A stretch of DNA of 16,200 nucleotides, taken from Bacteroidetes bacterium QS_8_68_15 (GTDB taxonomy: Bacteria > Bacteroidota > Rhodothermia > Rhodothermales > Salinibacteraceae). Each line of letters begins with the position of its first letter. Within the stretch, counting starts at the first letter, position 1. Positions 2 through 15,968 of this stretch are shown here, piece by piece. The position numbers were made by a program, and so were the translations under genes. The DNA lies in the NCBI GenBank assembly GCA_003023245.1, contig PXTR01000142.1:1-16200 (forward strand), given 5' to 3'. A model generated the notes under the pieces. The model made no database searches, had not been told where the DNA came from, and saw only the letters and a program-made list of their open reading frames with translations.

Positions 2-604
2 GATCCGTCCGCGACGCGGCCGTCCGCCTCTGACGCCTCCGCCGCGCTTCCTGCCCGGTCCGCCGCCTTCTCCGGCCGCGCCGACTCCGCTCGCGCCGAC
101 ACGACGCGTCCGCCTCCCCCCGACCGCTACGCCACGACGGGGCTCTCCCGCACAGACACTCGTGCGACGTACGAGCGAGCGCTCAGCTCTGCGCGCGGGG
201 TGCGCTCTTCGCTTACCGACCAGGAGCGCTCGCTGACCTGGACGAAGCGCAAGGCCGACAACTACCAGGTCGAGATCTACAAGAAAAGCTCGATGGCCGT
301 CGCGTGCTTTCTCTTCGTGCTGATCGGCATTCCGCTGGGCCTGACTCTCGGAAGCGGCTCGCTGGGCCGGGCCGGCGCCATCGCGCTGAGCATCTTTCTG
401 TTTTACTGGGTGACGCTCGTCCTGGGCGAAAAGGCCGCCGACCGCGCCGTCCTGCCGCCCTGGCTGGGCATGTGGGCGGCCAACATCGTGATGCTCGTCG
501 TCGGCGCCTGGCTGATGAGCTACGTCGCCCTCGACCTCGGCGCCACGCCCTCGCTGCGCCACCGCCTCTGGCGGGTCGTTAAACGTTGGAAAGTGGAAGG
601 TTGA
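2..604 (+). CDS. LptF/LptG (YjgP/YjgQ) family permease, C-terminal part
   Basis: The reading frame is open from the left edge (position 2) to TGA at 602-604, giving the last 200 residues of a longer protein. The family forms the membrane part of the ABC exporter that moves lipopolysaccharide from the inner membrane to the Lpt bridge. The conserved block YQVEIYKKSSMAVACFLFVL (268-327), followed by IGIPLG, matches the family's amphipathic helix and first C-terminal membrane helix. Two more helices follow (about 376-436 and 460-540), the standard three-helix end. Before this block is an unusual Ala/Ser/Arg/Pro-rich stretch of about 65 residues (2-199), probably a lineage-specific insertion or linker. 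The last eight residues (VKRWKVEG) and the stop codon lie inside a heptamer repeat that continues past the gene. LptF and LptG cannot be told apart from this part. A GTG at 200 is in frame but is probably internal. Confidence 0.82.
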   Translation, partial: DPSATRPSASDASAALPARSAAFSGRADSARADTTRPPPPDRYATTGLSRTDTRATYERALSSARGVRSSLTDQERSLTWTKRKADNYQVEIYKKSSMAVACFLFVLIGIPLGLTLGSGSLGRAGAIALSIFLFYWVTLVLGEKAADRAVLPPWLGMWAANIVMLVVGAWLMSYVALDLGATPSLRHRLWRVVKRWKVEG

Positions 605-650
605 ACGTTTCTCTTCGGGCTGACGAACCTTCAACTTTCAACCTTCAACC
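577..650. repeat. Heptamer-phased inverted repeat between LptF/G and rsmI
   Basis: Arm 1 (about 577-607) reads as imperfect 7-base units (TCGTTAA, ACGTTGG, AAAGTGG, AAGGTTG, AACGTTT). Arm 2 (625-650) reads as GAACCTT, CAACTTT, CAACCTT, CAACC. The reverse complement of arm 2 is GGTTGAA, AGTTGAA, GGTTCGT, which aligns unit for unit with arm 1. The arms could form a hairpin with a loop near 605-624 that contains CTTCGG. Arm 1 contains the permease stop codon and arm 2 ends directly at the rsmI ATG, so there is no room for a Shine-Dalgarno site. Confidence 0.85.
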
Positions 651-1322
651 ATGCTGTATTTAGTCCCCACCCCCATCGGCAACCTCGAAGACATCACGTT
701 ACGCGCGTTGCGCGTGCTGCGCGAGGAGGCCGACTTGATCGCCTGCGAGGATACGCGCACCTCCGGCACGCTGCTCTCGCACTACGACATCGACACGCCC
801 ACCACCGCCTACCACGAGCACAACGAGCACCAGAAGACCCCGCGCCTCGTCAAGCGCCTGCGCGCCGGCCACACCGTCGCGCTCATCACCGACGCGGGCA
901 CGCCCGGCATCTCCGACCCCGGCTTCTTGCTGGCGCGCGCCGCTCACGAGGAGGCAGACGCGCGCGTCGAGGCGCTGCCCGGCGCTACCGCGTTCGTGCC
1001 TGCCCTCGTCGCCAGCGCGCTCCCGGCTCACCGCTTCGCCTTCGAGGGCTTTCTGCCCAAGAAGCAAGGCCGGCAGACGCGCATCGAGCGCCTCGCCGAC
1101 GAAGAGCGCACGCTCATCTTCTACGAATCGCCGCATCGCCTTGTGCGCACCCTTACCGAGCTGGCCGACGCCTTCGGCCCCGAGCGCCGCGCCGCCGTCG
1201 CCCGGGAGCTCACCAAGCGCTACGAAGAACTGCGGCGAGGAACGCTGGACGAGTTACGGTCGTACTTCTCCGGTGACGATAAGGTGCGCGGCGAACTCGT
1301 CCTCGTCGTCGACGGAGCATAG
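651..1322 (+). CDS. rsmI: 16S rRNA (cytidine(1402)-2'-O)-methyltransferase RsmI
   Basis: This SAM-dependent methyltransferase of the tetrapyrrole-methylase fold adds a 2'-O-methyl group to C1402 in the decoding centre of 16S rRNA. The 223 residues carry the family signatures in order: LVPTPIGNLEDIT at 4-16, ACEDTR at 31-36, ITDAGTPGISDPG at 79-91 (the SAM-binding Gly-rich loop), ALPGATAFVPAL at 108-119, FEGFLPKK at 131-138, IFYESPHR at 156-163 and VARELTK at 183-189. It is shorter than the E. coli enzyme (286 residues) because the C-terminal extra domain is absent, a common compact form. The ATG at 651 is fixed by the conserved N-terminus MLYLVPTPIGN. There is no Shine-Dalgarno site; the start abuts an inverted repeat arm. 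Confidence 0.96.
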   Translation: MLYLVPTPIGNLEDITLRALRVLREEADLIACEDTRTSGTLLSHYDIDTPTTAYHEHNEHQKTPRLVKRLRAGHTVALITDAGTPGISDPGFLLARAAHEEADARVEALPGATAFVPALVASALPAHRFAFEGFLPKKQGRQTRIERLADEERTLIFYESPHRLVRTLTELADAFGPERRAAVARELTKRYEELRRGTLDELRSYFSGDDKVRGELVLVVDGA

Positions 1323-1323
1323 G

Positions 1324-1344
1324 GGTGGACGACGGACGGCGGCT
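1324..1344. repeat. Short degenerate heptamer run after the rsmI stop
   Basis: Directly after the TAG at 1320-1322 the sequence reads as GGTGGAC, GACGGAC, GGCGGCT, three imperfect 7-base units. This could be a decayed member of the heptamer elements found at other stop codons in the window. It is short and GC-rich, so chance is possible, and no matching inverted arm is visible. Confidence 0.3.
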
Positions 1345-1398
1345 CCCTGCCCTGCCAGCGTGGCAGCTATTGCGAGCCGTCGAAGACAATAGCAGGGA
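1344..1398 (+). promoter_or_regulatory. Potential three-way-junction structure between rsmI and the thioredoxin-like gene
   Basis: Three perfectly paired stems nest in 55 bases. The outer stem is TCCCTG (1344-1349) with CAGGGA (1393-1398). The second is CTGCCA (1352-1357) with TGGCAG (1361-1366), closed by a three-base loop. The third is CTATTG (1367-1372) with CAATAG (1387-1392), with a 14-base loop. The stems are almost contiguous, as in a stacked three-way junction. No T-run follows, so a simple intrinsic terminator is unlikely. I recognise no known riboswitch or hammerhead core. It could act as RNA in the leader of the next gene or as a cruciform in DNA. No function is assigned. Confidence 0.5.
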
Positions 1399-1470
1399 CG
1401 CGTGAACCCCCTCTGCAGCCTGCGGTCGAAGCGACGTCGAATCTTCAGTTCAGCCCCCAACCGCAACGCC

Positions 1471-2115
1471 ATGCCCGCCTTCCTCCGACGTGCGAGCCTG
1501 CTGCTCGCCGCGCTGCTGCTGGCCGCGGCCGGTCCGGCGGCTGCGCAGTCCTCCTCCGCCGAAGCAAACTCCTCCGAACCGGCCGCTTCCGGCGACTGCC
1601 GGACGGACCTTTCCGAACCGATGTTCACGGAGAACCGCACCGGCTCCTCCTCCTCCTCCTCCGATGACGCTGCTGCCGGCGCGCCGACCCCAGCCGAGGA
1701 ACGCGTCAAGGAGATCCTTTCTGAACAAGGCGTTCACGTCGTGCGCCTCTGGGCGCCGTGGTGCCCGAACTCCACCGGCGAGATGGCCGACGGCGCCTGG
1801 GACGACCTCGCCGCCGAAAACGCGGACGCGAGCTTCACCTTCGTCACCATCTGGAACGACGGCAACGGCGGCGCCGGCAAAATCGAAAAGTACGGCCTCC
1901 CACTGGGCGAACGCATCACCGAAGTCGTCCCCGCCGCGCCGGAGCAGGGCCGCCTCGATCAGTTCATGGGCCACCCCGTCAACTGGGTGCCCTCCACCTG
2001 GATCTTCCGCACCCCCGACGAGGGCGAGACCGAACGCGCCTTCGCCCTGAACTACGGTGAGATGAACCGCGCGACGCTCCAGACGCTCATCGACGCCGCC
2101 GGGAACGATTGGTAG
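1471..2115 (+). CDS. Exported thioredoxin-like protein with CPNS motif
   Basis: This is a 214-residue secreted or periplasmic protein with a thioredoxin-like fold. Residues 1-25 form a typical signal peptide (RR, then a Leu/Ala core, then GPAAAQ). A Ser/Ala/Asp/Pro-rich low-complexity linker follows (26-76), with six serines in a row at 59-64. The domain starts near residue 76. RLWAPWCPNS (92-101) takes the place of the usual WCxxC motif, so only the first cysteine (C98) is present and the second is Ser. VPSTWIF (173-179) supplies the cis-Pro loop. A CxxS site argues against ordinary dithiol oxidoreductase activity; a monothiol, isomerase or structural role is possible. The ATG at 1471 is preferred over an in-frame GTG at 1402 because it begins the signal peptide. 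The stop (2113-2115) lies in a heptamer repeat. Confidence 0.75.
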   Translation: MPAFLRRASLLLAALLLAAAGPAAAQSSSAEANSSEPAASGDCRTDLSEPMFTENRTGSSSSSSDDAAAGAPTPAEERVKEILSEQGVHVVRLWAPWCPNSTGEMADGAWDDLAAENADASFTFVTIWNDGNGGAGKIEKYGLPLGERITEVVPAAPEQGRLDQFMGHPVNWVPSTWIFRTPDEGETERAFALNYGEMNRATLQTLIDAAGNDW

Positions 2116-2142
2116 ATCGTTGATTGTTGATGGTGGATGGGG
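2107..2142. repeat. Heptamer repeat overlapping the stop codon of the thioredoxin-like gene
   Basis: From the end of the gene the sequence runs in 7-base steps: GATTGGT, then (after A) GATCGTT, GATTGTT, GATGGTG, GATGGGG. The TAG stop at 2113-2115 lies inside the run. The strict GAT at every seventh base makes the period clear. Confidence 0.75.
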
Positions 2143-2245
2143 TTTTCGTGGCTCTCGCGCCTGCGAGAAACAGAAGCGCTACGACACCGCGCCGAGTATT
2201 TCGGGGGGTAGGTAGCCGGCCCAAAGCAAGGCAGCAGCGGCCGAA

Positions 2246-2277
2246 AACCACCCACAATCCGCCACTGATCCATCCAC
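2246..2277. repeat. Probable inverted partner arm before the DUF2723 gene
   Basis: This C/A-rich stretch reads as ACCACCC, ACAATCC, GCCACTG, ATCCATC. Its reverse complement (GATGGAT, CAGTGGC, GGATTGT, GGGTGGT) resembles the GAT-type units at 2115-2142 but with several mismatches, so the pairing is weaker than at the other junctions. The arms are about 100 bases apart. Confidence 0.4.
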
Positions 2278-2286
2278 ACGCTCACG

Positions 2287-2310
2287 CTCCGGCAGTAACG
2301 AACGCCGGAG
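2287..2310 (+). promoter_or_regulatory. Perfect 7-bp hairpin in the leader of the DUF2723 gene
   Basis: CTCCGGC (2287-2293) pairs perfectly with GCCGGAG (2304-2310) across a 10-base loop, 37 bases before the ATG at 2348. A C-run rather than a T-run follows, so it is not a typical terminator. It may be a leader structure or chance in GC-rich DNA. Confidence 0.3.
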
Positions 2311-2347
2311 GCACCCCCCCGCACGTCCACACCCCCGCACGCCCATC

Positions 2348-2719
2348 ATGCGCCCCAAGCTCACCGACCGCCTGGTCGCCGGCGCCGTCTTTCTCTACGC
2401 GCTGGTGCTGTATCTACTGACGGTCGCCCCCGCGGCGTCGTTCTGGGACGCGGGCGAGTACATCGCCGTCGTGCACAACCTGGAGGTTTCCCCCCCGCCG
2501 GGCGCGCCGTTCTACATGCTGATCGGGCGGCTCTTCTCGATGTTCGTGCCCGACGATCTGGTGGCCCTTTCGGTCAACCTCGTCTCGGTGTTCTCCAGCG
2601 CGGGCGCGGTGCTGCTGGGGCACCTCGTCATCGTGCGGCTGCTGCGCACGTGGCAGTACGCCTCCGCGACCGACGAGCTGACCGGCGCGCTGCCATCGGC
2701 GCGTGCACCTTCACGGTGA
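2348..2719 (+). CDS. DUF2723 (TMEM260-like) protein, N-terminal fragment before a frameshift
   Basis: This is the N-terminal part of a large polytopic membrane protein whose remainder continues in another frame. DUF2723 is related to human TMEM260, a GT-C-fold protein O-mannosyltransferase; the substrate in this bacterium is unknown. Residues 9-30 form the first membrane helix. SFWDAGEYIAVVHNLEVSPP (31-50) is the family signature, with an acidic DAGE loop in the position where GT-C enzymes keep catalytic acids; GAPFYMLIGRLFSMF and another helix follow. The frame is right up to about residue 115 (DELTGAL) and then runs into 8-9 meaningless residues and a stop at 2717-2719. The ATG at 2348 gives a full N-terminus. 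No Shine-Dalgarno site is visible. With the next entry it would form one protein of about 1050 residues. Confidence 0.8.
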   Translation: MRPKLTDRLVAGAVFLYALVLYLLTVAPAASFWDAGEYIAVVHNLEVSPPPGAPFYMLIGRLFSMFVPDDLVALSVNLVSVFSSAGAVLLGHLVIVRLLRTWQYASATDELTGALPSARAPSR

Positions 2720-5493
2720 CCGACTCGTTCTGGTTCAACGCCGTCGAAGCGGAGGTCTACGCCCTCTCGATGCTGTTTACCGCGCTGGTGGTGTGGCTCA
2801 CCATGCGCTGGGCCGACGCCGCACGCCGCGAGGAAGCCCGGCTGCAGGGGGGCGGACGCGGCGGCGGCCGCGGCAGCATCTTTGGGCTCGCCTCCAACCG
2901 CTACCTCGTCCTGATCGCCTACCTCTTCGGGTTGGCCATCGGGGTTCACCTGCTGAACCTGTTGGCGCTCTTTTTCGTCGCGCTGATCATCTTCTTCACC
3001 GAGTACGACCGCGCCGAGTGGTCCGACGTGAAGCGCTGGGGGGCCATCGTAGCGACCGGGCTGGCCGCCTCGGTGGCGTTCGTCTTCGTCTATCCCGGCG
3101 TCGTGCAGATGCTCCCCACCTTCGCCGAACAGAGCGGCTGGCCGCTCTTCTTCTTCCTCGTCGTCTTCGCAGCGCTGGCCTTCGCCGTCTACTACACCCA
3201 TACGCGCGGGATGCAACGGGCCAACCTGCTGGCGCTCTGCGCTACGATGATCCTGATCGGGTACAGCGCCTACGCGCTCATCTTCATCCGCTCGGACGCG
3301 GATCCGCCCATCGACGAAAACGACCCCGAAACCGCCACGGCGTTCATCGACTACCTCAAGCGCGAGCAGTACGGCTCGACGCCCCTGCTCTCGGGCACCA
3401 CCTTCAACGAGGAAGAAGGGCGCATGGGACAAGAGGAAACGCTCTTCCCGCGTCGCCACTCCCCGAGCCGCCGCCACCAGCGCGTCTACAAGCGCTACGA
3501 CAGCGACTGGGAGTTTTTCTGGCAGTACCAGGTCGGACACATGTACGTGCGCTACTTCCTGTGGAACTTCATGGGCCGCGAAGGAGACACGCAGGGCAGC
3601 GGCACCGCCTTCGGCCCCGAGGCCGCCGCCCCGTCCGCCACGCAAGCGGCCTTGCAGACCGGCGGCGGAGGGCCCGGCGACAGCTCCTCCGCTGGCAAAA
3701 CGACGTCCGGCAACGAACCTCCCTCCGCTCCCGCCTCCTTCGAGACGCCCAGCGAAGAAGACGCCTACAACTACTACTTCGCGCTGCCGCTGCTGCTGGG
3801 CCTCTTCGGCATGACGTACCACTTCCTGCGCGACTGGCGGCGGGCCTTCTCCGTCGGCATCCTGTTTCTGCTGACAGGGTTCGGGGTCGTCGTCTACCTC
3901 AACCAGACGCCCATGCAGCCGCGGGAGCGAGACTACTCCTACGTCGGCAGCTTCTTCGCCTTCAGCCTATGGGTCGGCATCGGCGCGGCGGGGCTGATCG
4001 AACTGGCAGGCCATGCCCTCCGCGACCGCTTCTCCGGCGGGCTCACCGGCGTGAAGGGCCGCGGCGCGCTCTTCGGGCTGGGCGGGCTGCTCTTCCTGGC
4101 CGTGCCCGGCTGGATGGCCATTCAGAACTACGACGACCACGACCGCTCCGGCCGCTACATCGCGCCGGACTACGCCTATAACATGCTCAACAGCGTCGCC
4201 GAGGATGCCATTCTCTTCACCAACGGCGACAACGACACCTTCCCGCTTTGGTACCTGCAAGAGGTCGAAGGCGTGCGCCGCGACGTGCGCGTGGTTAACC
4301 TCTCCCTTCTGAACACGCCCTGGTACATCAAGCAGCTCAAAAACCAGCCCTCGCGCCAATCCGAGCCGCTGCCGATCTCGATGAGCGAGGACCGCATCGA
4401 CCGGCTCGCCGAAATGGGCTACCGCGACATGCTCTGGGAACCGGACTCCGTGCAGGTGCCCGTCGACAAAAGCGCATATCTCGAGGACGTCGGGTTCACC
4501 TCGCTGAAGCGCCGGCAGATCCACAGCCCGATGGCATGGAAGCTCACCGGCCGCTCGACGCCCTACGAGGGCTACAGTCTCCTGATCGCCGCCGACCGCG
4601 TGGCGTACAACCTGATTCGCAACAACGCCGAAAACGGCTGGAAGCGCCCCATCTACTTCGCCACCACCGTCAGCCAGGACGCGCGCCTGGACCTGGGCGA
4701 CTACCTCCAGATCGAAGGGCTGGCGCTGCGTGTAACGCCCATTCGCCACCAGGAGTCGCTGGGCCGCGTCACACCGCTGACGGCCGAGCGCATGTCGGAC
4801 TTCCGCTTTCGCGGCCTCAACGATCCGGACGTCTACTACGACAACGTCACGCGCCGCCTGATCGACGCCTACCGGCTCTGGTTCAGCGAAGCGGCGCTCC
4901 AGCTCTCCCGAAAGGGACGTCCCGAGATGGCACGCTCGCTCGTCGACACGCTCTCGCAGAACATTCCCTTCGACGTCATCCCCAGCGACACGCGGATGCG
5001 CATGCGGGTGGCCCGGGCCCACGCCGCCACCGGCGACACCAGCCAGGCGCTCAGCCTGCTGCGCCGGACCGAGAAGCGCGCCAGCGGAAAGGCCCGGCTC
5101 TCCATCGCGCAGACCTACGCGCGGATGGGCCGCTCTCAGGAAGCGCTGCGTCTCGCCCAGCAGGCCGAAGACAGCGTCCTGCGTGGGCTGCGCCAGGCCG
5201 GCTCCAACCGACGCCGCTTCCAACAGGCCGCGCGCCAGGTGCAGACGCTGCGCTACCTCTACATGCAGGCCGGCGCCTTCGACGAGGCCGCCGCCTTTAG
5301 CGAGGCGCTCGCGCAGGCCACCGGCGACCCCTCCCTCGCGCAGAGCGCCGGGGAACTGCGCAGCACGTTTCAGGGCCGCCCTGCCGCTTCCGGCGGCGCC
5401 GGCGGCGCTTCCGCTCCGCCCGCCGATTCGGCGAGGCCGCCGGCGCAACCCCCCGGCCCCGGCGCGCCTCCCACCGCTCCGATACAGAACTGA
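2650..5493 (+). CDS. DUF2723 (TMEM260-like) protein, C-terminal fragment after the frameshift
   Basis: Family homology starts at codon 2695 (IGACTFTVTDSFWFNAVEAE); the GTG at 2650 and the 15 codons before 2695 are out-of-frame sequence of the upstream part. About eight membrane helices follow between 2900 and 4130. A Gly/Ser/Pro-rich insertion lies at 3590-3750. The conserved block QTPMQPRERDYSYVGSFFAF is at 3904-3963, and NGDNDTFPLWYLQEVEGV, a hallmark of the family, lies near 4222-4275. After 4860 the protein becomes helical and TPR-like (ARAHAATGDTSQALSLL and similar units), then ends in a Pro/Ala/Gly-rich tail. About 930 codons after the shift show no other stop, so decay is recent or the shift is an artefact. 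The likely role is a glycosyltransferase-like membrane enzyme with a TPR partner-binding end, inferred from family only. Confidence 0.85.
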   Translation: MAVRLRDRRADRRAAIGACTFTVTDSFWFNAVEAEVYALSMLFTALVVWLTMRWADAARREEARLQGGGRGGGRGSIFGLASNRYLVLIAYLFGLAIGVHLLNLLALFFVALIIFFTEYDRAEWSDVKRWGAIVATGLAASVAFVFVYPGVVQMLPTFAEQSGWPLFFFLVVFAALAFAVYYTHTRGMQRANLLALCATMILIGYSAYALIFIRSDADPPIDENDPETATAFIDYLKREQYGSTPLLSGTTFNEEEGRMGQEETLFPRRHSPSRRHQRVYKRYDSDWEFFWQYQVGHMYVRYFLWNFMGREGDTQGSGTAFGPEAAAPSATQAALQTGGGGPGDSSSAGKTTSGNEPPSAPASFETPSEEDAYNYYFALPLLLGLFGMTYHFLRDWRRAFSVGILFLLTGFGVVVYLNQTPMQPRERDYSYVGSFFAFSLWVGIGAAGLIELAGHALRDRFSGGLTGVKGRGALFGLGGLLFLAVPGWMAIQNYDDHDRSGRYIAPDYAYNMLNSVAEDAILFTNGDNDTFPLWYLQEVEGVRRDVRVVNLSLLNTPWYIKQLKNQPSRQSEPLPISMSEDRIDRLAEMGYRDMLWEPDSVQVPVDKSAYLEDVGFTSLKRRQIHSPMAWKLTGRSTPYEGYSLLIAADRVAYNLIRNNAENGWKRPIYFATTVSQDARLDLGDYLQIEGLALRVTPIRHQESLGRVTPLTAERMSDFRFRGLNDPDVYYDNVTRRLIDAYRLWFSEAALQLSRKGRPEMARSLVDTLSQNIPFDVIPSDTRMRMRVARAHAATGDTSQALSLLRRTEKRASGKARLSIAQTYARMGRSQEALRLAQQAEDSVLRGLRQAGSNRRRFQQAARQVQTLRYLYMQAGAFDEAAAFSEALAQATGDPSLAQSAGELRSTFQGRPAASGGAGGASAPPADSARPPAQPPGPGAPPTAPIQN
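2681..2697 (+). other. Frameshift site (-1) in the DUF2723 gene
   Basis: Frame 2 codes correctly through acc ggc gcg ctg (2681-2692). The conserved continuation IGACTFTVTDSFWFNAVEAE starts at atc 2695 in frame 1. One base is missing, for example a G that would turn CC at 2693-2694 into GCC (Ala), or a longer deletion of 3n+1 bases occurred in this GGCGCG-rich stretch. No slippery heptamer is present, so programmed frameshifting is unlikely. Sequencing or assembly error and a real recent mutation are both possible. Confidence 0.85.
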
Positions 5494-5500
5494 CGCGGCG

Positions 5501-5570
5501 GCCGAAGGAGCAAGTCTGCCCCGAATGTGAAACTTTGGTCTGAACCGCTCGTTCGCCCGCACGCTTCGGC
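5501..5570 (+). promoter_or_regulatory. Leader of the cold-shock gene with a 7-bp inverted repeat
   Basis: The 191 bases between the DUF2723 stop and the cold-shock ATG (5494-5684) hold no gene. GCCGAAG (5501-5507) is perfectly complementary to CTTCGGC (5564-5570). Long structured leaders are known for cold-shock genes and control their translation with temperature, but the only evidence here is this single pairing and the length of the gap. No promoter could be assigned. Confidence 0.3.
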
Positions 5571-5673
5571 GGCTGGGTCGTTCAGGCGAGGGAGAAGGCG
5601 AGAGACGCACGCTCCGGTTTGCTCCGGCCCGCCTGCTCCCGCTTTTTCGCACGTGCATTTTCAACAGCAGTAC

Positions 5674-5679
5674 AGGAGG
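5674..5679 (+). promoter_or_regulatory. Strong Shine-Dalgarno site of the cold-shock gene
   Basis: AGGAGG stands five bases before the ATG at 5685. It decides this start over the in-frame upstream extension. It is one of only two clear Shine-Dalgarno sequences in the window; the other precedes the SCO gene. Confidence 0.8.
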
Positions 5680-5684
5680 CCCAC

Positions 5685-6188
5685 ATGCAACGCAGTACCG
5701 TAAAATGGTTCGACGCCAAGAAAGGGTATGGATTCATCCAGCACCCCGACGAGGGCGACGACGTATTCGTCCACTACTCGCAGATCCTTTCCGAGAAGGA
5801 CTTCAAGACGCTCCGCACCGGCCAGCCGGTTCGATTCGAGTTGAACGACGGGCCGAAAGGGCTGCACGCCCTCGACGTCCGCCCGCTCGACGAAGACGGC
5901 GAGAAAGAGCCGACCAAAAAGGCGGACGACGACGGCAACGTTCCCTCCGAAGACCCCGCCGCTGAGGAGTCAGACGCTGTGGAATCGACCGCTGCGGCCG
6001 AACCTGCCGCCGCAAGCACCGCCGCCCCCGCTTCCGCTGACTCCGCTACGGAACAGAGCGAAGCGGCTACCGAGCAGAACGAGCCGGAGGAGGAAGAAGA
6101 AGACGACTGGCGGAGCGACTGGGACGAAGACGAGTGGACGGACGAGCACGGCAACCCCCCCGACCCGATGGCCGGTCCCACGTTTTAG
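5685..6188 (+). CDS. Cold-shock domain protein with long acidic C-terminal tail
   Basis: This 167-residue RNA-binding protein begins with a complete cold-shock domain (1-66). It contains VKWFDAKKGYGFIQ with the RNP1 motif KGYGFI (13-18) and VFVHYSQI with the RNP2 motif VFVHY (27-31). Such domains bind single-stranded nucleic acid and act as RNA chaperones. Ordinary CspA proteins are about 70 residues; here a 100-residue tail rich in Ala, Glu, Asp and Ser is added. It ends in an acidic/aromatic segment, EEEEEDDWRSDWDEDEWTDE (135-154). The tail is predicted to be disordered and may limit RNA binding or bind partners. The start is fixed by AGGAGG and by the domain's N-terminus. It appears to be a single-gene unit with its own leader. 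Confidence 0.9.
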   Translation: MQRSTVKWFDAKKGYGFIQHPDEGDDVFVHYSQILSEKDFKTLRTGQPVRFELNDGPKGLHALDVRPLDEDGEKEPTKKADDDGNVPSEDPAAEESDAVESTAAAEPAAASTAAPASADSATEQSEAATEQNEPEEEEEDDWRSDWDEDEWTDEHGNPPDPMAGPTF

Positions 6189-6201
6189 CGCGAGGTGCTC
6201 A

Positions 6202-6227
6202 GCGCAGGGCGTGAGCGCAGGACGTAA
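6202..6227. repeat. Tandem 13-base repeat after the cold-shock gene
   Basis: GCGCAGGGCGTGA (6202-6214) is followed directly by GCGCAGGACGTAA (6215-6227), which differs at two positions. It lies 13 bases after the stop codon. It may be a slipped or decayed form of the heptamer elements at other gene ends, but the period here is 13, not 14. The rest of the 141-base gap up to ybeY shows no other feature. Confidence 0.5.
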
Positions 6228-6329
6228 GGCGGTTGGCACGGGACGTTTTCCGAAAAGCAGACGTCTTTCTCGTCCTGTCGACACTGGCATGACGACCACG
6301 CGCGCGCCCGTCGCTGACCGAGCCGACGA

Positions 6330-6791
6330 ATGAACGAACCGGCGTCCGAAATCGTCGTCGAAGAGGCGCACCCGGACGGGCGCACGCCGCTCGACACGGA
6401 GGCGCTCTCCGCGCTGCTGTCCCGCACGATCCGCACCGAGGGCGCCGAGCTGCGCGCGCTGACGGTCGTGCTGGCCGGACGGGATCTCGTCCGGCATCTC
6501 AACCGCGAGCACCTCGGCCACGACTACCCGACCGACGTGCTGGCCTTTCCGTTTGCGGAAGGCGCCGCGGTGGACGGCGAGATCTACGTCGATCTCGACA
6601 CCGCCGCCGAGCGATGTGCCGAGTTCGACGCCACGCCCGAGCAAGAAGCCCGGCGCTACGCCCTGCACGGCCTGCTCCACCTGATCGGCTATCGCGACAA
6701 GACCGAAGCGGGAAAACGGAAGATGCGCGCGCTCGAAGACCGCTACCTCGAGGCAGCAAACGACGATGCAGCGGCCGGCGGCGAGTCGTGA
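6330..6791 (+). CDS. ybeY: Endoribonuclease YbeY (rRNA maturation factor)
   Basis: YbeY is a zinc-dependent single-strand endoribonuclease needed for 16S rRNA 3'-end maturation and ribosome quality control. The 153 residues match the family length. LNREHLGHDYPTDVLAFPF (57-75) and DGEIYVDLDTA (82-92) are conserved blocks. The metal site is HGLLHLIGYRD (113-123): H113 and H117 are kept, while the third ligand, His in E. coli, is Asp (D123). From memory this substitution is usual in Bacteroidota-type YbeY, so it is not a sign of inactivity. The ATG at 6330 has no Shine-Dalgarno site. Its neighbours, a cold-shock protein and a ribosome hibernation factor, fit an RNA/ribosome stress theme, although each gene is separated by 140-160 bases. 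Confidence 0.95.
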   Translation: MNEPASEIVVEEAHPDGRTPLDTEALSALLSRTIRTEGAELRALTVVLAGRDLVRHLNREHLGHDYPTDVLAFPFAEGAAVDGEIYVDLDTAAERCAEFDATPEQEARRYALHGLLHLIGYRDKTEAGKRKMRALEDRYLEAANDDAAAGGES

Positions 6792-6954
6792 GCCGCTTGA
6801 AGTTGTAATCATGCTGCCAGTGCGCTCGCCCCGACGGTGAAAAGTACGGGCGGGAGGCAACTTTTTAGGGAAGGTGAAGTTAAGGAAGCGCAAAGAGAGA
6901 TCTGCGTTGTGCTCTCGCCACTGTCTCTCTCACGCTGACGTGCTTTCCACCCTC

Positions 6955-7272
6955 ATGGAAATTCCTCTCCAGATCACCACTCGCCACTTCGACGCGCGCC
7001 CCGCCCTGCACGATCACGCCGCGCGCCGCCTCGAAAAACTCGAACGCTTCTACGACGGCATCATCGACGCACACGTCATCCTCGAAGCCGACGGCCGCCC
7101 GCCCGACGACAAAAAGGCCGAAGTTATGATCAACGTCTACCAGAAACGGCTCGCGGCCACCAGCACTGCTTCCTCCCACGAAGAGGCCATCGACGGCTGC
7201 GCCGAGGGGCTACGTCGCCAGCTCAAGACGTACAAAGGCAAGCTCAAGAGCACGAAGCAAGACCGGTGGTAA
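6955..7272 (+). CDS. hpf: Ribosome hibernation promoting factor (short HPF/RaiA family)
   Basis: This 105-residue protein has the full sigma-54 modulation/ribosome-associated inhibitor A domain and nothing more. MEIPLQITTRHFDARPALHD (1-20), HAARRLEKLERFYDGIIDAH and a middle strand VMINVYQKRLAAT are followed by the helix EEAIDGCAEGLRRQLKTYKG. The C-terminus is rich in Lys and Arg (KLKSTKQDRW). The family binds in the mRNA/tRNA channel of the 30S subunit in stationary phase and promotes inactive ribosome dimers or blocks initiation. The C-terminal dimerisation domain of long HPF is absent, so partner factors would be needed for dimers. The ATG at 6955 matches the domain start; an upstream in-frame ATG (6874) would add a non-conserved stretch. 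The 163-base gap before it has a short AGAGAGA/TCTCTCT complementarity (near 6894 and 6924). Confidence 0.9.
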   Translation: MEIPLQITTRHFDARPALHDHAARRLEKLERFYDGIIDAHVILEADGRPPDDKKAEVMINVYQKRLAATSTASSHEEAIDGCAEGLRRQLKTYKGKLKSTKQDRW

Positions 7273-7300
7273 AAGAAGGAGTGGCTCGCTGCACTCGCCG

Positions 7301-7357
7301 AAGAGGAGAAGCGTGGCTGGCTGCTGGACACCCCTTCCTCACGCACCTTCTCTCTTT
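7301..7357. terminator. Possible bidirectional terminator at the convergent junction
   Basis: Two convergent genes end at 7272 and 7370. AAGAGGAGAAGCGTG (7301-7315) pairs with the region CACGCACCTTCTCTCTT (7340-7356), with a two-base bulge, across a 24-base loop. A pyrimidine-rich run follows on the plus strand. It is not a classic compact hairpin with a T-run. The GA-rich sequence after both stops may also be a degenerate heptamer pair (from the minus-strand stop: GGAGGAA, AGGGGGA, AAGAGAG, AAGGTGC). Confidence 0.35.
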
Positions 7358-7369
7358 CCCCCTTTCCTC

Positions 7370-9618: not shown

Positions 9619-9739
9619 GCGGTGCGGGGGTGCTGCGGTAATTTGGTGATACGGAGTCGGAGCGTTGTAGGGGCAAGGCGGGGAGCTGTTCGCCGAAACA
9701 CCCCCCGTTTCCGCCTCAGCGCCTCACTATAACAAAAAA

Positions 9740-10042
9740 CTAATTTCGTCGCTGGTGAAGGTCGCGTTTCCAGTCGTCGGGAATTTGGCCGGAGGGAAAG
9801 CCGGCGTAGCGGTACGGTACGGGGCCGTCGTCTTCGCGCCGCTGCTCTTCACGGATCTCGCGCGCCCCCACGAGCGCGTGCTCGCCCGCCGCCGCATGTC
9901 GCCGGGGTCGCCGGGGCACCGACGCGCCGGTGCGCAACGGGGCCGGGCGTTCGGGAAAGTAGAGGCGATAGACGGTGGCCACGCACCACGTGAGCAAAAA
10001 GAAAAACAGCGGCGCGACCAGGAGCAGGAAGAGCACATGCAT
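9740..10042 (-). CDS. Small one-helix membrane protein downstream of the oxidase genes
   Basis: I do not recognise this 100-residue protein. Residues 1-28 (MHVLFLLLVAPLFFFLLTWC and on to YRLYF) form one hydrophobic helix. A 70-residue hydrophilic part rich in Arg and Pro follows and ends with PYRYAGFPSGQIPDDWKRDL, a segment that looks like a folded or binding motif rather than random translation. The ATG at 10042 places the helix at the N-terminus. The gene is on the same strand as, and 159 bases after, the oxidase subunit IV gene, and it precedes metF. Small single-helix subunits are common in heme-copper oxidases, so an accessory subunit or assembly role is possible but is inferred only from position. 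The gap 10043-10201 shows no repeat array. Confidence 0.6.
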   Translation of the reverse strand: MHVLFLLLVAPLFFFLLTWCVATVYRLYFPERPAPLRTGASVPRRPRRHAAAGEHALVGAREIREEQRREDDGPVPYRYAGFPSGQIPDDWKRDLHQRRN

Positions 10043-10201
10043 GACGGCAGGCCAGGACGTTCTGATAGTGCACAAGGAGAAACGAACACCGGCGGTGGCG
10101 CGGTGGGTTACCGCTTGTTAAGTTTTCGCATAGACACGGTTCCACTCCAGTTGAAACGACCACGCAATGCGGCGGAGTTCGCCGGTCGGCGAGACGTCGT
10201 T

Positions 10202-10702
10202 TTACGAGTCGTCGCCGGACGGGGCGCTCGCGGTGTCTGCGCTCGCAGGGGCTTCATCAGCCGTCGTCGCGCTGCTCGCGCCGCCGCCAGCGTTCGGATA
10301 GTCCGCCGGTGCGATGCGCAGGAGCGAGTCGGCCGGCTCCTCCGATTGCAGCTCTTCGGCGCGGCGCTCCTGAGCGGAGATCGTCTCGGGAGCCACGTTG
10401 CCCAGGTCGCCGCGAAAGCTCACGTCCAGCAGCGTAAAGAAAAGAAAGACCACGACGAAGACCGTTCCTACCGTGAAGACCATCGAGTTGACCCCCTTGT
10501 CGTACTTCAAGGCCATAAAGAAGAGCACCACCAGCGCGGATTTCGCCCCGGCGATCCCCAGCGCGACGGGCAGGTCCAGCACGCCGAGGTCGAGCTGCGC
10601 CACGGCGACGGTCAGAACGGTCAACACCACCAGCGCCCCGAAGACCCGAAGCAGGACCTTCATGGGAATGACGTGGTGGCTGTCGTGCTCGGTGTGGGCC
10701 AT
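10202..10702 (-). CDS. ctaF: Cytochrome c oxidase subunit IV (prokaryotic COX4 family)
   Basis: This small membrane subunit belongs to the caa3-type oxidase. Three helices (about 16-36, 44-66, 73-94) match the three-helix prokaryotic COX4 fold, and KSALVVLFFMALKYDK (54-69) is the typical second-helix signature. The N-terminus is His-rich (HTEHDSHH). A 70-residue acidic, Ala/Ser-rich tail follows the helices and is longer than in most relatives, probably disordered. The ATG at 10702 stands four bases after the end of an inverted heptamer array that fills the gap to the coxC stop, so no Shine-Dalgarno site is present. It is cotranscribed with coxC by position. Confidence 0.9.
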   Translation of the reverse strand: MAHTEHDSHHVIPMKVLLRVFGALVVLTVLTVAVAQLDLGVLDLPVALGIAGAKSALVVLFFMALKYDKGVNSMVFTVGTVFVVVFLFFTLLDVSFRGDLGNVAPETISAQERRAEELQSEEPADSLLRIAPADYPNAGGGASSATTADEAPASADTASAPSGDDS

Positions 10703-10710
10703 GGGCTTCG

Positions 10711-10787
10711 CGGTTTGGGGTTGCGGGTTCGGAGTTCGGGGTCGGAGGCGCTAAAAAACTCTAAACCCAAAACCCCGAACCCCAAAC

Positions 10788-10790
<3 letters not shown>
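10711..10790. repeat. Heptamer-phased inverted repeat between coxC and ctaF
   Basis: This is the clearest element of its kind in the window. The ctaF-side arm reads CGGTTTG, GGGTTGC, GGGTTCG, GAGTTCG, GGGTCGG (10711-10745). The coxC-side arm reads AAACTCT, AAACCCA, AAACCCC, GAACCCC, AAACTCA (10756-10790). Each arm is five exact 7-base steps. The arms are inverted imperfect copies with a 10-base loop. The coxC stop codon (10788-10790) is part of the last unit, and the other arm ends eight bases before the ctaF ATG. Confidence 0.92.
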
Positions 10791-11486
<696 letters not shown>

Positions 11487-11510
<24 letters not shown>

Positions 11511-11535
11511 GAGCGAGGGAGCGGTTTGCGTTCAG
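11487..11535. repeat. Direct repeat flanking the coxC start codon
   Basis: On the plus strand AGCGGTTTGCGTT occurs at 11487-11499 and again at 11520-11532, both followed by (T)CAG. One copy lies in codons 4-9 of coxC and the other in its leader, 33 bases apart, with the ATG (11508-11510) between them. A small duplication or slippage event is the simplest explanation. Confidence 0.6.
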
Positions 11536-11545
11536 GTCGGTCGGT

Positions 11546-11583
11546 GGTGCCGTGCGTGACGCATGGTGCGTGACGCGTGATGC
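11546..11583. repeat. Heptamer array, arm before coxC
   Basis: Plus-strand units are CGTGACG (11555-11561), CATGGTG, CGTGACG and CGTGATG (11576-11582). They are inverted relative to the CGTGATT/CGTGATG/CGTGACT units that follow the coxA stop at 11680-11702. On the mRNA this arm reads as C/A-rich sequence 35 bases before the coxC start. About 96 bases of unremarkable sequence separate the arms. Confidence 0.8.
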
Positions 11584-11679
11584 TACCTGCCCGCCGAGGA
11601 GGTCGACGAAAGAAGCGGTATCGCTTTCTGAATAGCGTCGCCGGTAGACGCTGGACGCAAGCGTGTGGGACCGGCTCCA

Positions 11680-11699
11680 GTCACGCATCACGAATCACG

Positions 11700-11702
<3 letters not shown>
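11680..11702. repeat. Heptamer array starting at the coxA stop codon
   Basis: Plus-strand units are GTCACGC, ATCACGA, ATCACGC (11680-11700), followed by TA, so the TAG stop of coxA (11700-11702) is made by the last unit. Read from the gene it is TAG CGTGATT CGTGATG CGTGACT. The boundary TAGCGTGAT is identical to that at 15960-15968 after an unrelated gene. Confidence 0.8.
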
Positions 11703-13502
<1,800 letters not shown>

Positions 13503-13520
13503 GGTGCTGGGAGGGCTGTG

Positions 13521-13561
13521 AGAGGTACCTCTTTTCTGATGCTTTTGCGCTTTCGAAGCGC
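13521..13561. promoter_or_regulatory. Two perfect palindromes in the coxA leader
   Basis: AGAGGTACCTCT (13521-13532) is a perfect 12-base palindrome and begins 19 bases upstream of the coxA start. GCGCTT (13547-13552) and AAGCGC (13556-13561) form a perfect 6-bp hairpin with a TCG loop. The spacer between them is AT-richer than its surroundings. They could be an operator or a leader RNA structure controlling oxidase expression. No regulator is identified. Confidence 0.4.
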
Positions 13562-13586
13562 GTTGCGTATTACGTGAGGCGTGAAA
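13559..13586. repeat. Heptamer array, arm before coxA
   Basis: Units on the plus strand are CGCGTTG, CGTATTA, CGTGAGG, CGTGAAA (13559-13586). They share the CGTGA core with the array after the coxB stop, in inverted orientation on the mRNA, with about 98 bases between arms. The first unit overlaps the 13547-13561 hairpin. Confidence 0.65.
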
Positions 13587-13684
13587 TTGCCTGCCTGCGA
13601 ATGCTCAGAAGAGAATCGAGGCGTCGCTTTTTCTGCATTGCTTTTCCGGTAGAGTAGAAACACAGCCCCCGTGCCCAGGCTTCC

Positions 13685-13712
13685 TCACGAAACACACATC
13701 ACGTTTCACCCA
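13685..13712. repeat. Heptamer array starting at the coxB stop codon
   Basis: Plus-strand units are TCACGAA, ACACACA, TCACGTT, TCACCCA (13685-13712). The coxB stop is at 13714-13716, one base away. Read from the gene, the mRNA has the stop followed by GGGTGAA, ACGTGAT, GTGTGTT, TCGTGAG. Confidence 0.7.
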
Positions 13713-13713
13713 C

Positions 13714-14706
13714 CTACTCCGCCGCGCCGACGCCGCTGCTGCCGGACGAGGACTCGGTGAGCGTCTTGTCGCTCTGCGTTTTCATAAACTCGATCAGCGA
13801 GGTAAGCTGCCGCTCGGAGAGCGACCCGTAGTTGGAGGGCATGTTCGAGCCGTAGCCGGCGACGATCTTCTCGTAGGGCGCAACGATGGACTCGCGCAGG
13901 TAGTTCTCGTCCACCGTCACGGTCTGGCCGCTCGACATCTCGTGACCGGTCGTGCCGTAGAGGCCCTGCCAGGTCGGCCCCACGTTCGAGGAGCCGTCGA
14001 GCGAGTGGCAGGCGTTGCAGCCCTGGCGTTCATAGAGGACCTTGCCGTACTCCGCCGGCGGGAGGTCCGCCACGCCGCCGCCGGTCTGGAGCCACTCCTG
14101 GAAGTCCTGCTGGTCGTGCACGACGACCTTGGCGTCCATCGCGGAGTGTTGCGTGCCGCAGTACTCGGTGCAGAACGCCTTGTACGTGCCCGTCTCGGTC
14201 GCCTCGAACCACAGGTACGAGTAGCGGTCCGGCAGCACGTCGTGCTTCACGCGAAAGGCCGGCACGAAGAAGCTGTGGAGCACGTCGGTGCTGCTCATCT
14301 TCAGGCGCACCGGGCGGCCCGCCGGCACGTGCAACTCATTGGTGATCGACGTGCCGTTCGGGTAGGTAAAGTTCCAGTTCCACTGCTCCCCCTGCACGTT
14401 GATCTCGTAAGCGTTGGGCGGGGCCGTCCCGATCTTGATGAACGACTGAAAGCCCCACGTGAAGACCACCAGCACCAGAATCGTCGGAATCACGATCCAG
14501 GAGATCTCGATGAGCTTGTTCTCCTTGACCGGAGCGGGCCGCTCGGAGGGGTGCTGCCGGCGGTACTTGTAGGCGAAGTAGAGCATCGCCCCCATCACGC
14601 CCACGAAGAGCACGATGCTCGTCCAGTAGACGAAGTAAAAGAGGGCGTCGATCTCCGGGGCCAGCGTCGAGGCCTGCTCCGGGAGCCAAACGGTTGCGTC
14701 GTCCAT
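13714..14706 (-). CDS. coxB: Cytochrome c oxidase subunit II fused to cytochrome c (caa3 type)
   Basis: This subunit takes electrons through a fused cytochrome c and the CuA centre and passes them to subunit I. It has 330 residues: two membrane helices (about 20-46 and 66-90), then a CuA cupredoxin domain with QWNWNFTYP (108-116). The CuA ligands are His144, Cys179, Cys183, His187 and Met190 in AFCTEYCGTQHSAM. A monoheme cytochrome c domain follows (about 215-312) with QGCNACH (229-234; haem attached at Cys230 and Cys233, His234 axial) and a probable Met289 axial ligand in GSNMP. A Ser/Gly-rich tail ends the protein. No cleavable signal or lipobox precedes helix 1. It lies 150 bases after the SCO gene, which fits with SCO loading its CuA site. 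Confidence 0.97.
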   Translation of the reverse strand: MDDATVWLPEQASTLAPEIDALFYFVYWTSIVLFVGVMGAMLYFAYKYRRQHPSERPAPVKENKLIEISWIVIPTILVLVVFTWGFQSFIKIGTAPPNAYEINVQGEQWNWNFTYPNGTSITNELHVPAGRPVRLKMSSTDVLHSFFVPAFRVKHDVLPDRYSYLWFEATETGTYKAFCTEYCGTQHSAMDAKVVVHDQQDFQEWLQTGGGVADLPPAEYGKVLYERQGCNACHSLDGSSNVGPTWQGLYGTTGHEMSSGQTVTVDENYLRESIVAPYEKIVAGYGSNMPSNYGSLSERQLTSLIEFMKTQSDKTLTESSSGSSGVGAAE

Positions 14707-14792
14707 GTCGTCGTCGGTACTGCCGTAGGGAAGGAGTTACTACTGCGTTTTACTTCGGAAGGCGCTTTCTACGACCGCCCAGAAAAGCATTC

Positions 14793-14808
14793 GAACGTCG
14801 ACACGTTC
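14793..14808. promoter_or_regulatory. Perfect short hairpin between the SCO gene and coxB
   Basis: GAACGT (14793-14798) and ACGTTC (14803-14808) pair perfectly around a four-base CGAC loop, in the 150-base gap between the SCO stop and the coxB start. No T-run follows on either strand, so it is more likely an operator or leader hairpin than a terminator. No heptamer array is visible in this gap. Confidence 0.35.
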
Positions 14809-14856
14809 TACGCACCACGTTTCAGCGCCTCCTCCCAAGACGCCCCCCAGTCGCTA

Positions 14857-15744
14857 CTACTCCCGTCGCCCTCCCTCGTTCTGTCGGTTGTTTTCCCGCC
14901 GCCAAAATACGGCGAGGCCCACCCCGAGAAGCACTGCAAAAAGCAAACTTCCCAGCCGCATGATGTTGAAAGCGTCGGCAACGTAGGAGTTCGACTTCGG
15001 GTCGTACTGAAAGCAGCGCGACACGACCTGGTCAAGCACGCTGCCGACCTGTCCGTTGGAGGCTTCGACGAGCGCCTTGCGCGTATCGCCGGCGCTGGGG
15101 TTGACTCCGCCGAGGTAGCGCGTGACCTCTCCCTCGCCGCTGAGAAAGATTACCGTCGAGGGATGCGCGAACTGCTTTTTGCGCTCGATCCAGTTGAAGT
15201 TGAAGCCCACTGCCTGCGTAAGACGCTGAATGCTCTCTTCCGACCCGGTGAGGAAGTGCCATCCGTCCGCCGCGTCGGGCTTGCCGAGGTTGCCGAGCGC
15301 GGTCTTCTTTTCCTTGCGCGCGATTTTCGGGCCTTCCCGTTTGTTGAAGCTGACGGTGAGCACCTCGAACTGCCCCCCCGGCGTCCACTCCATATCGGAG
15401 AGCGTGCGCGTCAGCCCCTTCAGCATCAGGTTGCAGAGCATCGGGCACTGGTGGTAGACGAGGTTGAGGACCACCGGGCGCTCCCCGTCGAAGTAGCGCC
15501 CGAGCTGCACCTGCTTTCCCGCCGCGTTGCGAAAGGTAAGGTCCTGCGGAATCGACGCGCCGAGCTTCTGCTCCAGCTCCACGCCGTCGAACTCCTCGAT
15601 CTGCTGCCCGCTGCGCTGCGCGTGAGCGGCGGGCACTCTCAGTGCGACGGCGACCAGCAACGCGACGCCGAGCCCCCCGGCCAGGACGCCCCGGAGGCTT
15701 CCCGCAGCCACCATCGAAGCAACGTCAAGCGGTCGTCGCATCAT
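14857..15744 (-). CDS. SCO1/SenC family copper chaperone
   Basis: This membrane-bound thioredoxin-fold protein delivers copper to, or reduces, the CuA site of subunit II. The 295 residues start with an N-terminal hydrophobic signal or anchor (about 12-42, ending AHAQ). QCPMLC (99-104) provides the CxxxC copper ligands Cys100 and Cys104, and FAHPST (192-197) the third ligand His194. VVLNLVYHQCPMLCN and VLTVSFN are typical SCO strands. Unlike short SCO proteins it has a second helix at the C-terminus (262-281, RLGSLLFAVLLGVGLAVFW), as in the long SCO variants next to alternative complex III/caa3 clusters. AGGAGG at 15753-15758 lies eight bases before the first of two adjacent ATGs, favouring 15744. 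Confidence 0.93.
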   Translation of the reverse strand: MMRRPLDVASMVAAGSLRGVLAGGLGVALLVAVALRVPAAHAQRSGQQIEEFDGVELEQKLGASIPQDLTFRNAAGKQVQLGRYFDGERPVVLNLVYHQCPMLCNLMLKGLTRTLSDMEWTPGGQFEVLTVSFNKREGPKIARKEKKTALGNLGKPDAADGWHFLTGSEESIQRLTQAVGFNFNWIERKKQFAHPSTVIFLSGEGEVTRYLGGVNPSAGDTRKALVEASNGQVGSVLDQVVSRCFQYDPKSNSYVADAFNIMRLGSLLFAVLLGVGLAVFWRRENNRQNEGGRRE

Positions 15745-15752
15745 CGCTCGGC

Positions 15753-15758
15753 CCTCCT
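15753..15758 (-). promoter_or_regulatory. Strong Shine-Dalgarno site of the SCO gene
   Basis: AGGAGG on the minus strand, eight bases before ATG 15744. It supports the first of two adjacent ATG codons and stands out because the other oxidase genes lack such a site. Confidence 0.75.
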
Positions 15759-15917
15759 GTTGGCTGTAGAGAAGAAAAACTGCGTCAGGAAAGCGGCCTT
15801 CCCGTTTCGCCCCTCGTTGCCACGTTGTGCTACGCAGGCGCGGGCGTCGGGGTCGGTGTGCAAAGCGTTTTTCTACGAAAGTTTTCTGGTCGGACGCAAT
15901 CGATGCGGTCTATTGTC

Positions 15918-15968
15918 ATCACGCGATACGCATCACGCGATACGCATCACGCGATACGCATCACGCTA
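15918..15968. repeat. Regular 14-base tandem array (two alternating heptamers) at a stop codon
   Basis: ATCACGC and GATACGC alternate without error: seven units from 15918 to 15966 (ATCACGC four times, GATACGC three times). The last unit plus TA makes the TAG stop of the partial gene (15966-15968). There are no spacers, so this is not CRISPR. No clear inverted arm is seen in the remaining 173 bases before the SCO start, which hold only the SCO leader. Confidence 0.95.

Follow-up and report, generated by a model that had tools for sequence, protein, structure and literature searches.

Paired heptad arrays at bacterial gene ends as probable arms of small palindromic intergenic elements

Introduction

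Several kinds of short repeats are known from the spaces between bacterial genes. The short tandemly repeated repetitive (STRR) heptamers of heterocystous cyanobacteria are built of 7-bp tandem units; we know of no inverted partners or shared interiors in them. Miniature inverted-repeat transposable elements (MITEs), enterobacterial repetitive intergenic consensus (ERIC) sequences and repetitive extragenic palindromic (REP) sequences are small, palindromic, non-coding and intergenic, and are dispersed in both orientations. Integron attC sites are hairpins that follow stop codons and carry 7-bp core sites. Here we describe arrays with a 7-bp period (heptad arrays) at gene ends in a 16,200-nt stretch of a bacterial chromosome, that of Bacteroidetes bacterium QS_8_68_15 (contig PXTR01000142.1), referred to below as the window. 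These arrays tend to be matched by an inverted array within their own gap and are probably the arms of small palindromic elements.

Bacterial genomes have been known since 2007 to contain heptamers in excess, for which no cause has found acceptance (as told in PMC4679880 and PMC4692102). In Xanthomonas, GGGAATC heptamers are intergenic and occur as inverted pairs in convergent orientation, of which Xcc has 70 and Xac 75; most lie 0-50 bp after stop codons on the coding strand, including overlaps with the stop, those 0-50 bp before starts lie on the non-coding strand, and repeat length and sequence differ between relatives (Rehm et al., 2015; PMC4692102, sections consulted). The placement at stop codons, which the initial annotation of the window took to be undescribed, had therefore already been reported. 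TAACTGA heptamers are found in marine Beggiatoaceae, Cyanobacteria and five Bacteroidetes (MacGregor, 2015; PMC4679880, sections consulted).

Results

Heptad Arrays in the Window Have Inverted Partners

In the non-coding DNA of the window plus 15 bp on either side, lag-7 identity is 0.306; dinucleotide shuffles average 0.261 (sd 0.009; maximum 0.283 of 300 shuffles), so that the excess is 5 SD. All seven stretches of the window that reach the threshold of 14 lag-7 matches out of 21 touch non-coding DNA. Four of them are repeats that the initial annotation had placed at stop codons, namely those of lptF/G (582), the thioredoxin-like gene (2112), coxC (10756) and coxA (11671); three further arms, at 625, 10712 and 11555, were absent from that list. 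The coxB array (13685) falls below the lag-7 threshold when taken alone and is backed by a model of the element family denoted family 0 (see below) that was built without window copies (Table 1). The repeat listed at 15918 is real, its unit being a perfect 14-bp sequence, i.e., two heptads, present in 3.6 copies (15917-15966, at the stop codon of a partial gene; Tandem Repeats Finder, 100%). The weaker candidates after rsmI (1324) and the lipoprotein gene (7335) did not reach the threshold.

The placement at gene ends thus stands, and the unit turns out to be an inverted pair, or hairpin, within the gap rather than a repeat of the stop codon. Four gaps of the window contain a second, inverted array and a fifth a weaker inverted pair (Table 1); no inverted partner of the 15918 array was found in the stretch searched. 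The heptad sequence varies between gaps and both arms within one gap match each other, with one arm at the stop codon of the upstream gene and the other on the side of the next gene's start or directly at it. In the lptF/G-rsmI gap, the lptF/G stop codon TGA (602-604) lies inside the left arm and the right arm finishes at the rsmI ATG (651); the C-terminus of the lptF/G product, -VVKRWKVEG, is encoded inside the array, and the length of this protein is about that of six homologs.

The Lag-7 Signal Across a Related Genome

The genome-scale lag-7 test proposed in the initial annotation was applied to G068, the nearest relative, instead of the genome of the window itself. G068 is the closest genome among 114 of the order of G004 (coxB is 83% identical, compared with 65% for the next one). 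The sample used for statistics comprised 669 kb in 51 stretches, with exact gene stops and approximate gene starts. Stops and starts with a gap of less than 60 nt were left out of the stop and start statistics, gaps of less than 40 nt were left out of the gap and family-0 count, and low-period repeats were dropped from the array calls.

The initial annotation had named the absence of a genome-wide 7-base periodicity after stop codons as the result that would speak against it; in G068 the periodicity is present. In the 60 nt after 410 stops, lag-7 identity is 0.334 vs 0.272±0.0033 in shuffles (18.6 SD), and in the 60 nt before 461 starts it is 0.328 vs 0.292±0.0024 (15.3 SD); the last 60 nt of coding sequence have no excess (0.278 vs 0.288). 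A 7-phased array starts within 20 nt of 83 of the 410 stops that are followed by a gap of at least 60 nt. For the control lags 5, 6, 8, 9, 10, 11, 13, 16, 17 and 19 the respective numbers of stops are 2, 4, 20, 2, 1, 0, 6, 17, 6 and 2, and for lag 14, twice 7, the number is 70. Part of the lag-8 arrays is explained by a period-8 class of gene-end arrays (GAGTGCGG-like, e.g., at L133:11175, L160:15371 and L165:14986), so that 7 is the dominant and not the exclusive period.

The lag-7 signal is highest beside the stop, declines with distance and climbs again towards the start. In co-directional gaps of at least 200 nt, the stop side has a lag-7 value of 0.350, compared with 0.279 and 0.282 for lags 5 and 8, and in mid-gap the lag-7 value is near those of the two other lags. 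In the last 15 nt before the start, lags 5, 7 and 8 are raised alike (0.310, 0.328 and 0.322, respectively), and hence the start-side signal of these long gaps is not specific to lag 7. The arrays also have a strand polarity: on the coding strand, G exceeds C in 91/99 stop-side arrays vs 228/427 controls, and C exceeds G in 49/53 start-side arrays vs 397/488 controls. GGG is present in 26 of the 99 stop-side arrays.

Arm Pairing and Dispersed Families

An inverted partner in the same gap (score of at least 12) was detected for 25 of 85 stop-side arrays of G068, compared with a mean of 5.9 and a maximum of 10 in 30 swaps; the mean partner score is 9.3, vs 6.9 when swapped, and 60 of the 85 arrays score below 12. 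Own-gap partners are likewise in excess in G010 (4/9 vs 0.2), G009 (5/14 vs 0.2) and G065 (5/10 vs 0.9).

The gaps of G068 and the window form groups by sequence, and masking of all arrays leaves 47 matching gap pairs, vs 1 pair in a single shuffled set. The largest of the families, family 0, has CGTGATG-type arms around a conserved interior of ~115 nt and occurs in both orientations. A search with nhmmer placed it in 42 of 470 G068 gaps, of which 35 are co-directional, 6 convergent and 1 divergent, vs 353, 47 and 70 among all gaps; because 41 of the 42 gaps are co-directional or convergent, family 0 is nearly always beside a stop codon. A model made from 12 G068 copies alone recovers four window copies, two of them full and two partial. 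The covariance model R1, whose alignment leaves out six of 20 copies (L151, L005, L161, L166, L101 and L131:3819) and includes both best window copies, so that their R1 scores are high by construction, has 101 matches in G068 (150 of 1704 candidates were scored, and some sites count on both strands), 21 in G065, 1 in G004 and 21 in G003 (those listed for the latter being short, 61-77 nt), with 0 to 5 matches in the other 14 of the 18 genomes searched. Within family 0, pairing holds for 90.7% of the arm cells and drops to 9-50% once one arm is shifted along the other, and 6 cells are changed on both sides vs 1.7 in shuffles. In the coxA-coxC gap, the orthologous gap of G068 (L131) contains a family-0 copy and that of G004 a weak one; no family-0 copy was found in the G068 ortholog of the coxB-coxA gap.

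The lptF/G-rsmI hairpin belongs to another family, with copies on G068 contigs C15 (84%), C77 (79%) and C89 (75%) and four shorter ones. No homologs of lptF/G or rsmI (E<=1e-6) were detected in the examined stretches of the seven G068 contigs that carry these copies, and the element has no plasmid match. Both this family and family 0 combine terminal inverted repeats with dispersed copies that have a conserved interior, as is typical of MITEs. The coxC-coxD hairpin has 13 partial similar places in G068 and none in G065, G004 or G001, and the array at the thioredoxin-like stop codon has a similar 34-nt stretch in G068 (C98, 88%).

Stop Codons Inside Arms

In the G068 sample, 28 genes stop inside an array. 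The C-terminal sequence -RDA, the reading of CGTGATGCGTGA, is found in 5 of these 28 genes vs 2 of 427 others. Comparison of the tails with homologs was possible for 7 of the 28 array-ending genes, in 5 of which at most 6 tail residues are unaligned, and for 95 of the 427 control genes. That arms meet stop codons in this way is consistent with an element end having overwritten the extreme tail of a gene, which would be a further step beyond contact itself. Evidence of selection for a stop codon in every frame is weak: stop trinucleotides have a density of 0.0565 in stop-side arms vs 0.0475±0.0046 in column-shuffled heptads (0.044 in start-side arms, same strand), and 29 of 92 stop-side arms contain none.

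Sister Species and Distribution

The Balneola sister species G010 and G009 share 133 orthologs (median amino acid identity 97%) and 102 orthologous gaps, 14 of which contain an array in either species. In two gaps with shared neighbours (gap 6 of g10C3 and gap 11 of g10C1), the heptad hairpins are written differently in the two species, and in the former each species has its stop codon within its own array. Length differences between the species amount to 7, 14 and 21 nt in three arrays. The 21 gaps that differ by at least 25 nt were read by eye, and many of these differences are differences in gene calls.

Two side observations come from these genomes. After one G010 stop (L094:4306-4500) there is a ACCACAAAGAACACAGAG... 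hairpin; at the same stop in G009 (reverse complement of L252:9533-10286), a heptad hairpin is accompanied by ~750 bp of extra DNA and then a ACCACAAAG hairpin, a difference that looks like an insertion carrying a hairpin. A repeat at the ends of Balneola contigs (L094:1-141, L092:1-200) is matched at more than 20 dispersed places in G009, for the most part with 85-96% identity.

The gene-end signal is patchy across genomes and not general. The lag-7 excess after stops is clear in G068 (z 18.6), G010 (8.6), G065 (5.9) and G009 (5.8), doubtful in G012 (2.2) and G004 (2.3), and not significant in the small samples of G001 (1.7), G003 (-0.5), G061 (0.0) and G054 (0.4); upstream of starts, G068 alone has a clear excess (15.3), and that of G065 is weak (2.7). 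A lineage-wide or general feature is rejected: z is 1.4 after stops and 2.0 before starts in a pool of 17 other Rhodothermales samples, and the after-stop z ranges from -2.7 to 1.7 in five rough groups made from 79 of 80 coxA loci (without L041, which belongs to G010). Of 35 samples 11-22 kb in length, 31 contain at most one non-coding lag-7 array. One non-coding array of Roseithermus (L097:5024-5211) extends over 188 bp and consists of CTGGCTG/CTGGCTT heptads in 14-bp units.

Features and Gene Content of the Window

The elements of the window are collected in Table 1. The genes around them, named from their translations, are presumably lptF/G, rsmI, a thioredoxin-like gene, a cold-shock gene, ybeY, an hpf-like gene, metF and a cox operon, in which coxD encodes subunit IV. 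The best matches of the window coxA are Rhodothermales records (e.g., Roseithermus and metagenome-assembled genomes of Rhodothermaceae), with 72-76% identity, and not cyanobacterial ones. A long membrane-protein gene at 2348-5493 is present in two overlapping frames (2348-2719 and 2650/2716-5493), and the split at ~2690-2720 suggests a frameshift or a sequencing error; the cold-shock-type gene (5685-6188) has a long acidic tail in translation. At gathering score, no Rfam 15 family matches the window or any of the elements in the six sources scanned (window, L131, L144, L145, L153 and L163); its sole match, a SAM riboswitch of G068 (L153:4733-4918, minus strand), lies outside the elements.

Table 1. 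Heptad arrays, hairpins and family-0 elements of the window (E values are from the model built with 12 G068 copies only)
Feature	Position	Strand	Arms	Model matches and remarks
Heptad hairpin, lptF/G-rsmI gap	578..650	+	589-609, 626-646	inverted arms 81%
Heptad array GATTGTTGATGGTGGATGG containing the thioredoxin-like stop codon	2110..2143	+	2122-2134, 2247-2259 (weaker pair)	inverted partner partial
Heptad hairpin, coxC stop to coxD start	10703..10787	-	10757-10786, 10707-10736	
Family-0 element, coxA stop to coxC start	11554..11700	-	11554-11574, 11680-11700; CGTGATTCGTGATGCGTGA / GCATCACGCGTCACGC	model core 11567-11694; E 2.2e-14; R1 92.7 bits, this copy being in R1's own alignment
Family-0 element, coxB stop to coxA start	13555..13707	-	13555-13579, 13683-13707	model core 13571-13698; E 2.8e-16; R1 93.1 bits, this copy being in R1's own alignment
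Degenerate family-0 remnant, sco-coxB gap	14756..14810	-		E 1.5e-6, model positions 64-119 only; R1 21.8 bits
Family-0-related remnant after the partial gene at the window end	15813..15967	-		E 2.5e-5 for 15893-15932; R1 23.8 bits (15813-15932) and 13.7 bits (15934-15967)

Discussion

Based on the heptad arrays and their placement, the excess of inverted partners, the dispersed families with conserved interiors and the stop codons inside arms, we regard it as moderately probable that the arrays are the arms of palindromic intergenic elements of ~70-160 bp that are partly dispersed, prone to slippage, kept paired and able to reach into gene ends. Such elements would occupy the gap that separates a stop codon from the following gene; several families with unrelated interiors are dispersed in the genome. 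The arm arrays of 7-bp units would lengthen and shorten through replication slippage, with the arms kept mutually complementary most likely via template switching within the hairpin. The elements would extend up to genes, whose final codons may be overwritten by an arm that also provides the stop codon, deeper intrusion into coding DNA presumably being removed by selection. Copying of elements is supported by the interiors shared between gaps; slippage and template switching we infer from the changes between sister species together with published mechanisms (PMC8604942, PMC7202029, as far as the consulted parts of these papers go), and any cause assigned to the 7-bp phase would be conjectural too.

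A number of observations weigh against palindromic elements of this kind. Interior homology after masking is found in only 31 of 139 array-bearing gaps of G068 vs 41 of 331 array-free ones, and therefore most arrays are not demonstrably copies; the long matches between copies are ~59-80% identical, so that no recent movement is visible. Among the 102 orthologous Balneola gaps, of which the 21 that differ by at least 25 nt were read, no clean empty site or target duplication was found, and the automatic count of indels inside arrays is mixed (1, 2, 3, 6, 7 (twice), 9, 21, 33 and 41). In Balneola the G/C polarity is not clear-cut (8 vs 6 in G010, 13 vs 5 in G009) and the before-start excess is absent (z -0.3 and 0.3). 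The covariation of the family-0 arms does not clearly exceed shuffles by two measures, doubly changed pairs numbering 3 vs 1.4 in shuffles, a value reached in 50 of 500 of them, and further pair types 7 vs 7.3, with the tested structure itself derived from the very sequences tested. The tails of array-ending genes are no more diverged than those of controls (median unaligned residues 5 and 3 vs 5 and 4), and the excess of -RDA arises because array-ending genes were chosen, showing only that arms encode tails. Finally, no mobilising gene was identified in ~1.9 Mb of G068, a genome that may be incomplete: both the Y1 tyrosine transposase that accompanies REP sequences and bacterial interspersed mosaic elements with RAYT (REP-associated tyrosine transposase) (Y1_Tnp, PF01797) and the reverse transcriptase domain (RVT_1, PF00078) have 0 matches there.

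A doubtful but serious alternative dispenses with mobile elements altogether: slippage in 7-nt steps and template switching at quasi-palindromes would build the matching arms in situ, non-coding DNA beside genes simply being the site where this occurs and shared interiors being exceptional. The lack of a detected interior homolog for 108 of the 139 array gaps and the different rewriting of hairpins at the same gaps in sister species are consistent with this mechanism, as are the earlier proposal by Mrazek (2007) that 7 nt corresponds to a polymerase contact favouring slippage (told in the consulted parts of PMC4679880 and PMC4692102) and the statement that template switching homogenises the arms of inverted repeats (PMC8604942, consulted part). 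Generation in place is hard to reconcile with a family-0 interior of ~115 nt that is conserved outside the arms in dozens of gaps and with copies of the lptF/G-rsmI hairpin at other genes, and slippage alone leaves the enrichment at the stop over mid-gap unexplained. It appears improbable that the arrays are functional mRNA hairpins, i.e., structures between cistrons under selection for insulating translation, stabilising processed mRNAs or terminating transcription, with a phase of 7 suited to single-strand-binding proteins such as cold-shock proteins. Three of the four window gaps that were folded (a set to which the 2107-2260 gap does not belong) beat nearly all shuffles, with RNA fold z values of -2.2 (lptF/G-rsmI), -3.75 (coxC-coxD) and -2.8 (coxA-coxC), the fourth, coxB-coxA, not clearly doing so (z only -1.45); family 0 shuns divergent gaps (1/42), arm pairs co-vary through changes on both sides, and binding of Csp or S1 to heptamers has been proposed (PMC4679880, consulted part). 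Yet arrays in general are found in divergent gaps as well (18/70 vs 103/353 co-directional gaps; 1.08 arrays per kb in divergent, 1.65 in co-directional and 1.83 in convergent gaps), only 2 of 22 terminator-like sites of the window fall in the listed elements, both in their interiors (13664-13681 and 14793-14808), and most cox-operon gaps of the relatives compared lack a 7-phased array.

The initial annotation had suggested a dedicated process that creates or maintains the repeats, for which we found no candidate enzyme in the ~1.9 Mb of G068. An enzyme specialised in making gene-end arrays, such as a REP-associated tyrosine transposase (RAYT) or a reverse transcriptase with a 7-nt template, would account for an exact period common to different heptads and for placement specific to gene ends. 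We nevertheless consider it highly improbable and reject both enzymes as makers in G068, given the empty searches of the ~1.9 Mb described above: PF01797 is present in low-array genomes such as G073 and G032, PF00078 is also missing from G065, G009 and G010, and an enzyme adding terminal repeats would not predict inverted arms and shared interiors. Another genome of the same order, G024, has 29 PF00078 matches. Chance or base composition has nothing of weight in its favour beyond the fact that short two-copy repeats are commonly produced by chance, and its probability is practically negligible; it is rejected for G068 by the 18.6 SD after stops, the lack of an excess in the last 60 nt of coding DNA and the low control lags, to which the 5 SD of the window can be added.

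It is tempting, as a tentative and rather unlikely extension, to envisage one general element class defined by architecture in unrelated bacteria (this Rhodothermales lineage, Balneola and Xanthomonas) and subject to fast turnover, in which the 7-bp step, the pairing of arms and the position after the stop are kept, the sequence itself changes freely and gene tails can be replaced by arms. The combination in one genome of heptads with inverted partners, shared interiors and gene-end placement, with arms rewritten in sister species, offers a concrete setting for distinguishing slippage, template switching and the copying of elements through comparison of close strains. The genes that stop inside an arm, 28 in 669 kb, suggest that such elements can set protein ends.

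Comparison with Known Systems

As in the case of STRR, the units are 7-bp tandem repeats, a likeness drawn from the general description of those sequences. With MITE, ERIC and REP elements they share small size, non-coding palindromic structure and dispersal between genes in both orientations, and they differ in having variable 7-bp arrays as element ends and in that neither a target duplication nor a RAYT was found.

The TAACTGA repeats have the same period, are intergenic and partly overlap stop codons; they consist, however, of one sequence, mostly just upstream of starts, with one inverted repeat in 170 sets (PMC4679880, consulted part). The over-representation of period 7 in intergenic DNA of the window and G068 resembles that of the Xanthomonas heptamers, and G068 also agrees with them in the location of arrays near stops on the coding strand and near starts on the non-coding strand and in the inverted pairs, from which pattern Balneola departs in that its polarity is not clear-cut and a start-side excess is lacking. 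Xanthomonas has one fixed G-rich heptamer, read as a G-quadruplex in the consulted part of PMC4692102, whereas here there are many heptads and the four-G3 quadruplex pattern is found in 0 of 99 stop-side arrays of G068; family-specific conserved interiors are a further difference. In the open-licence literature we found no report of many heptad families per genome with family-specific interiors, nor of arms ending proteins in this way or of matched rewriting between sister species. What is new here compared with these systems is the presence of many heptad families in one genome, their family-specific interiors and their rewriting between sister species.

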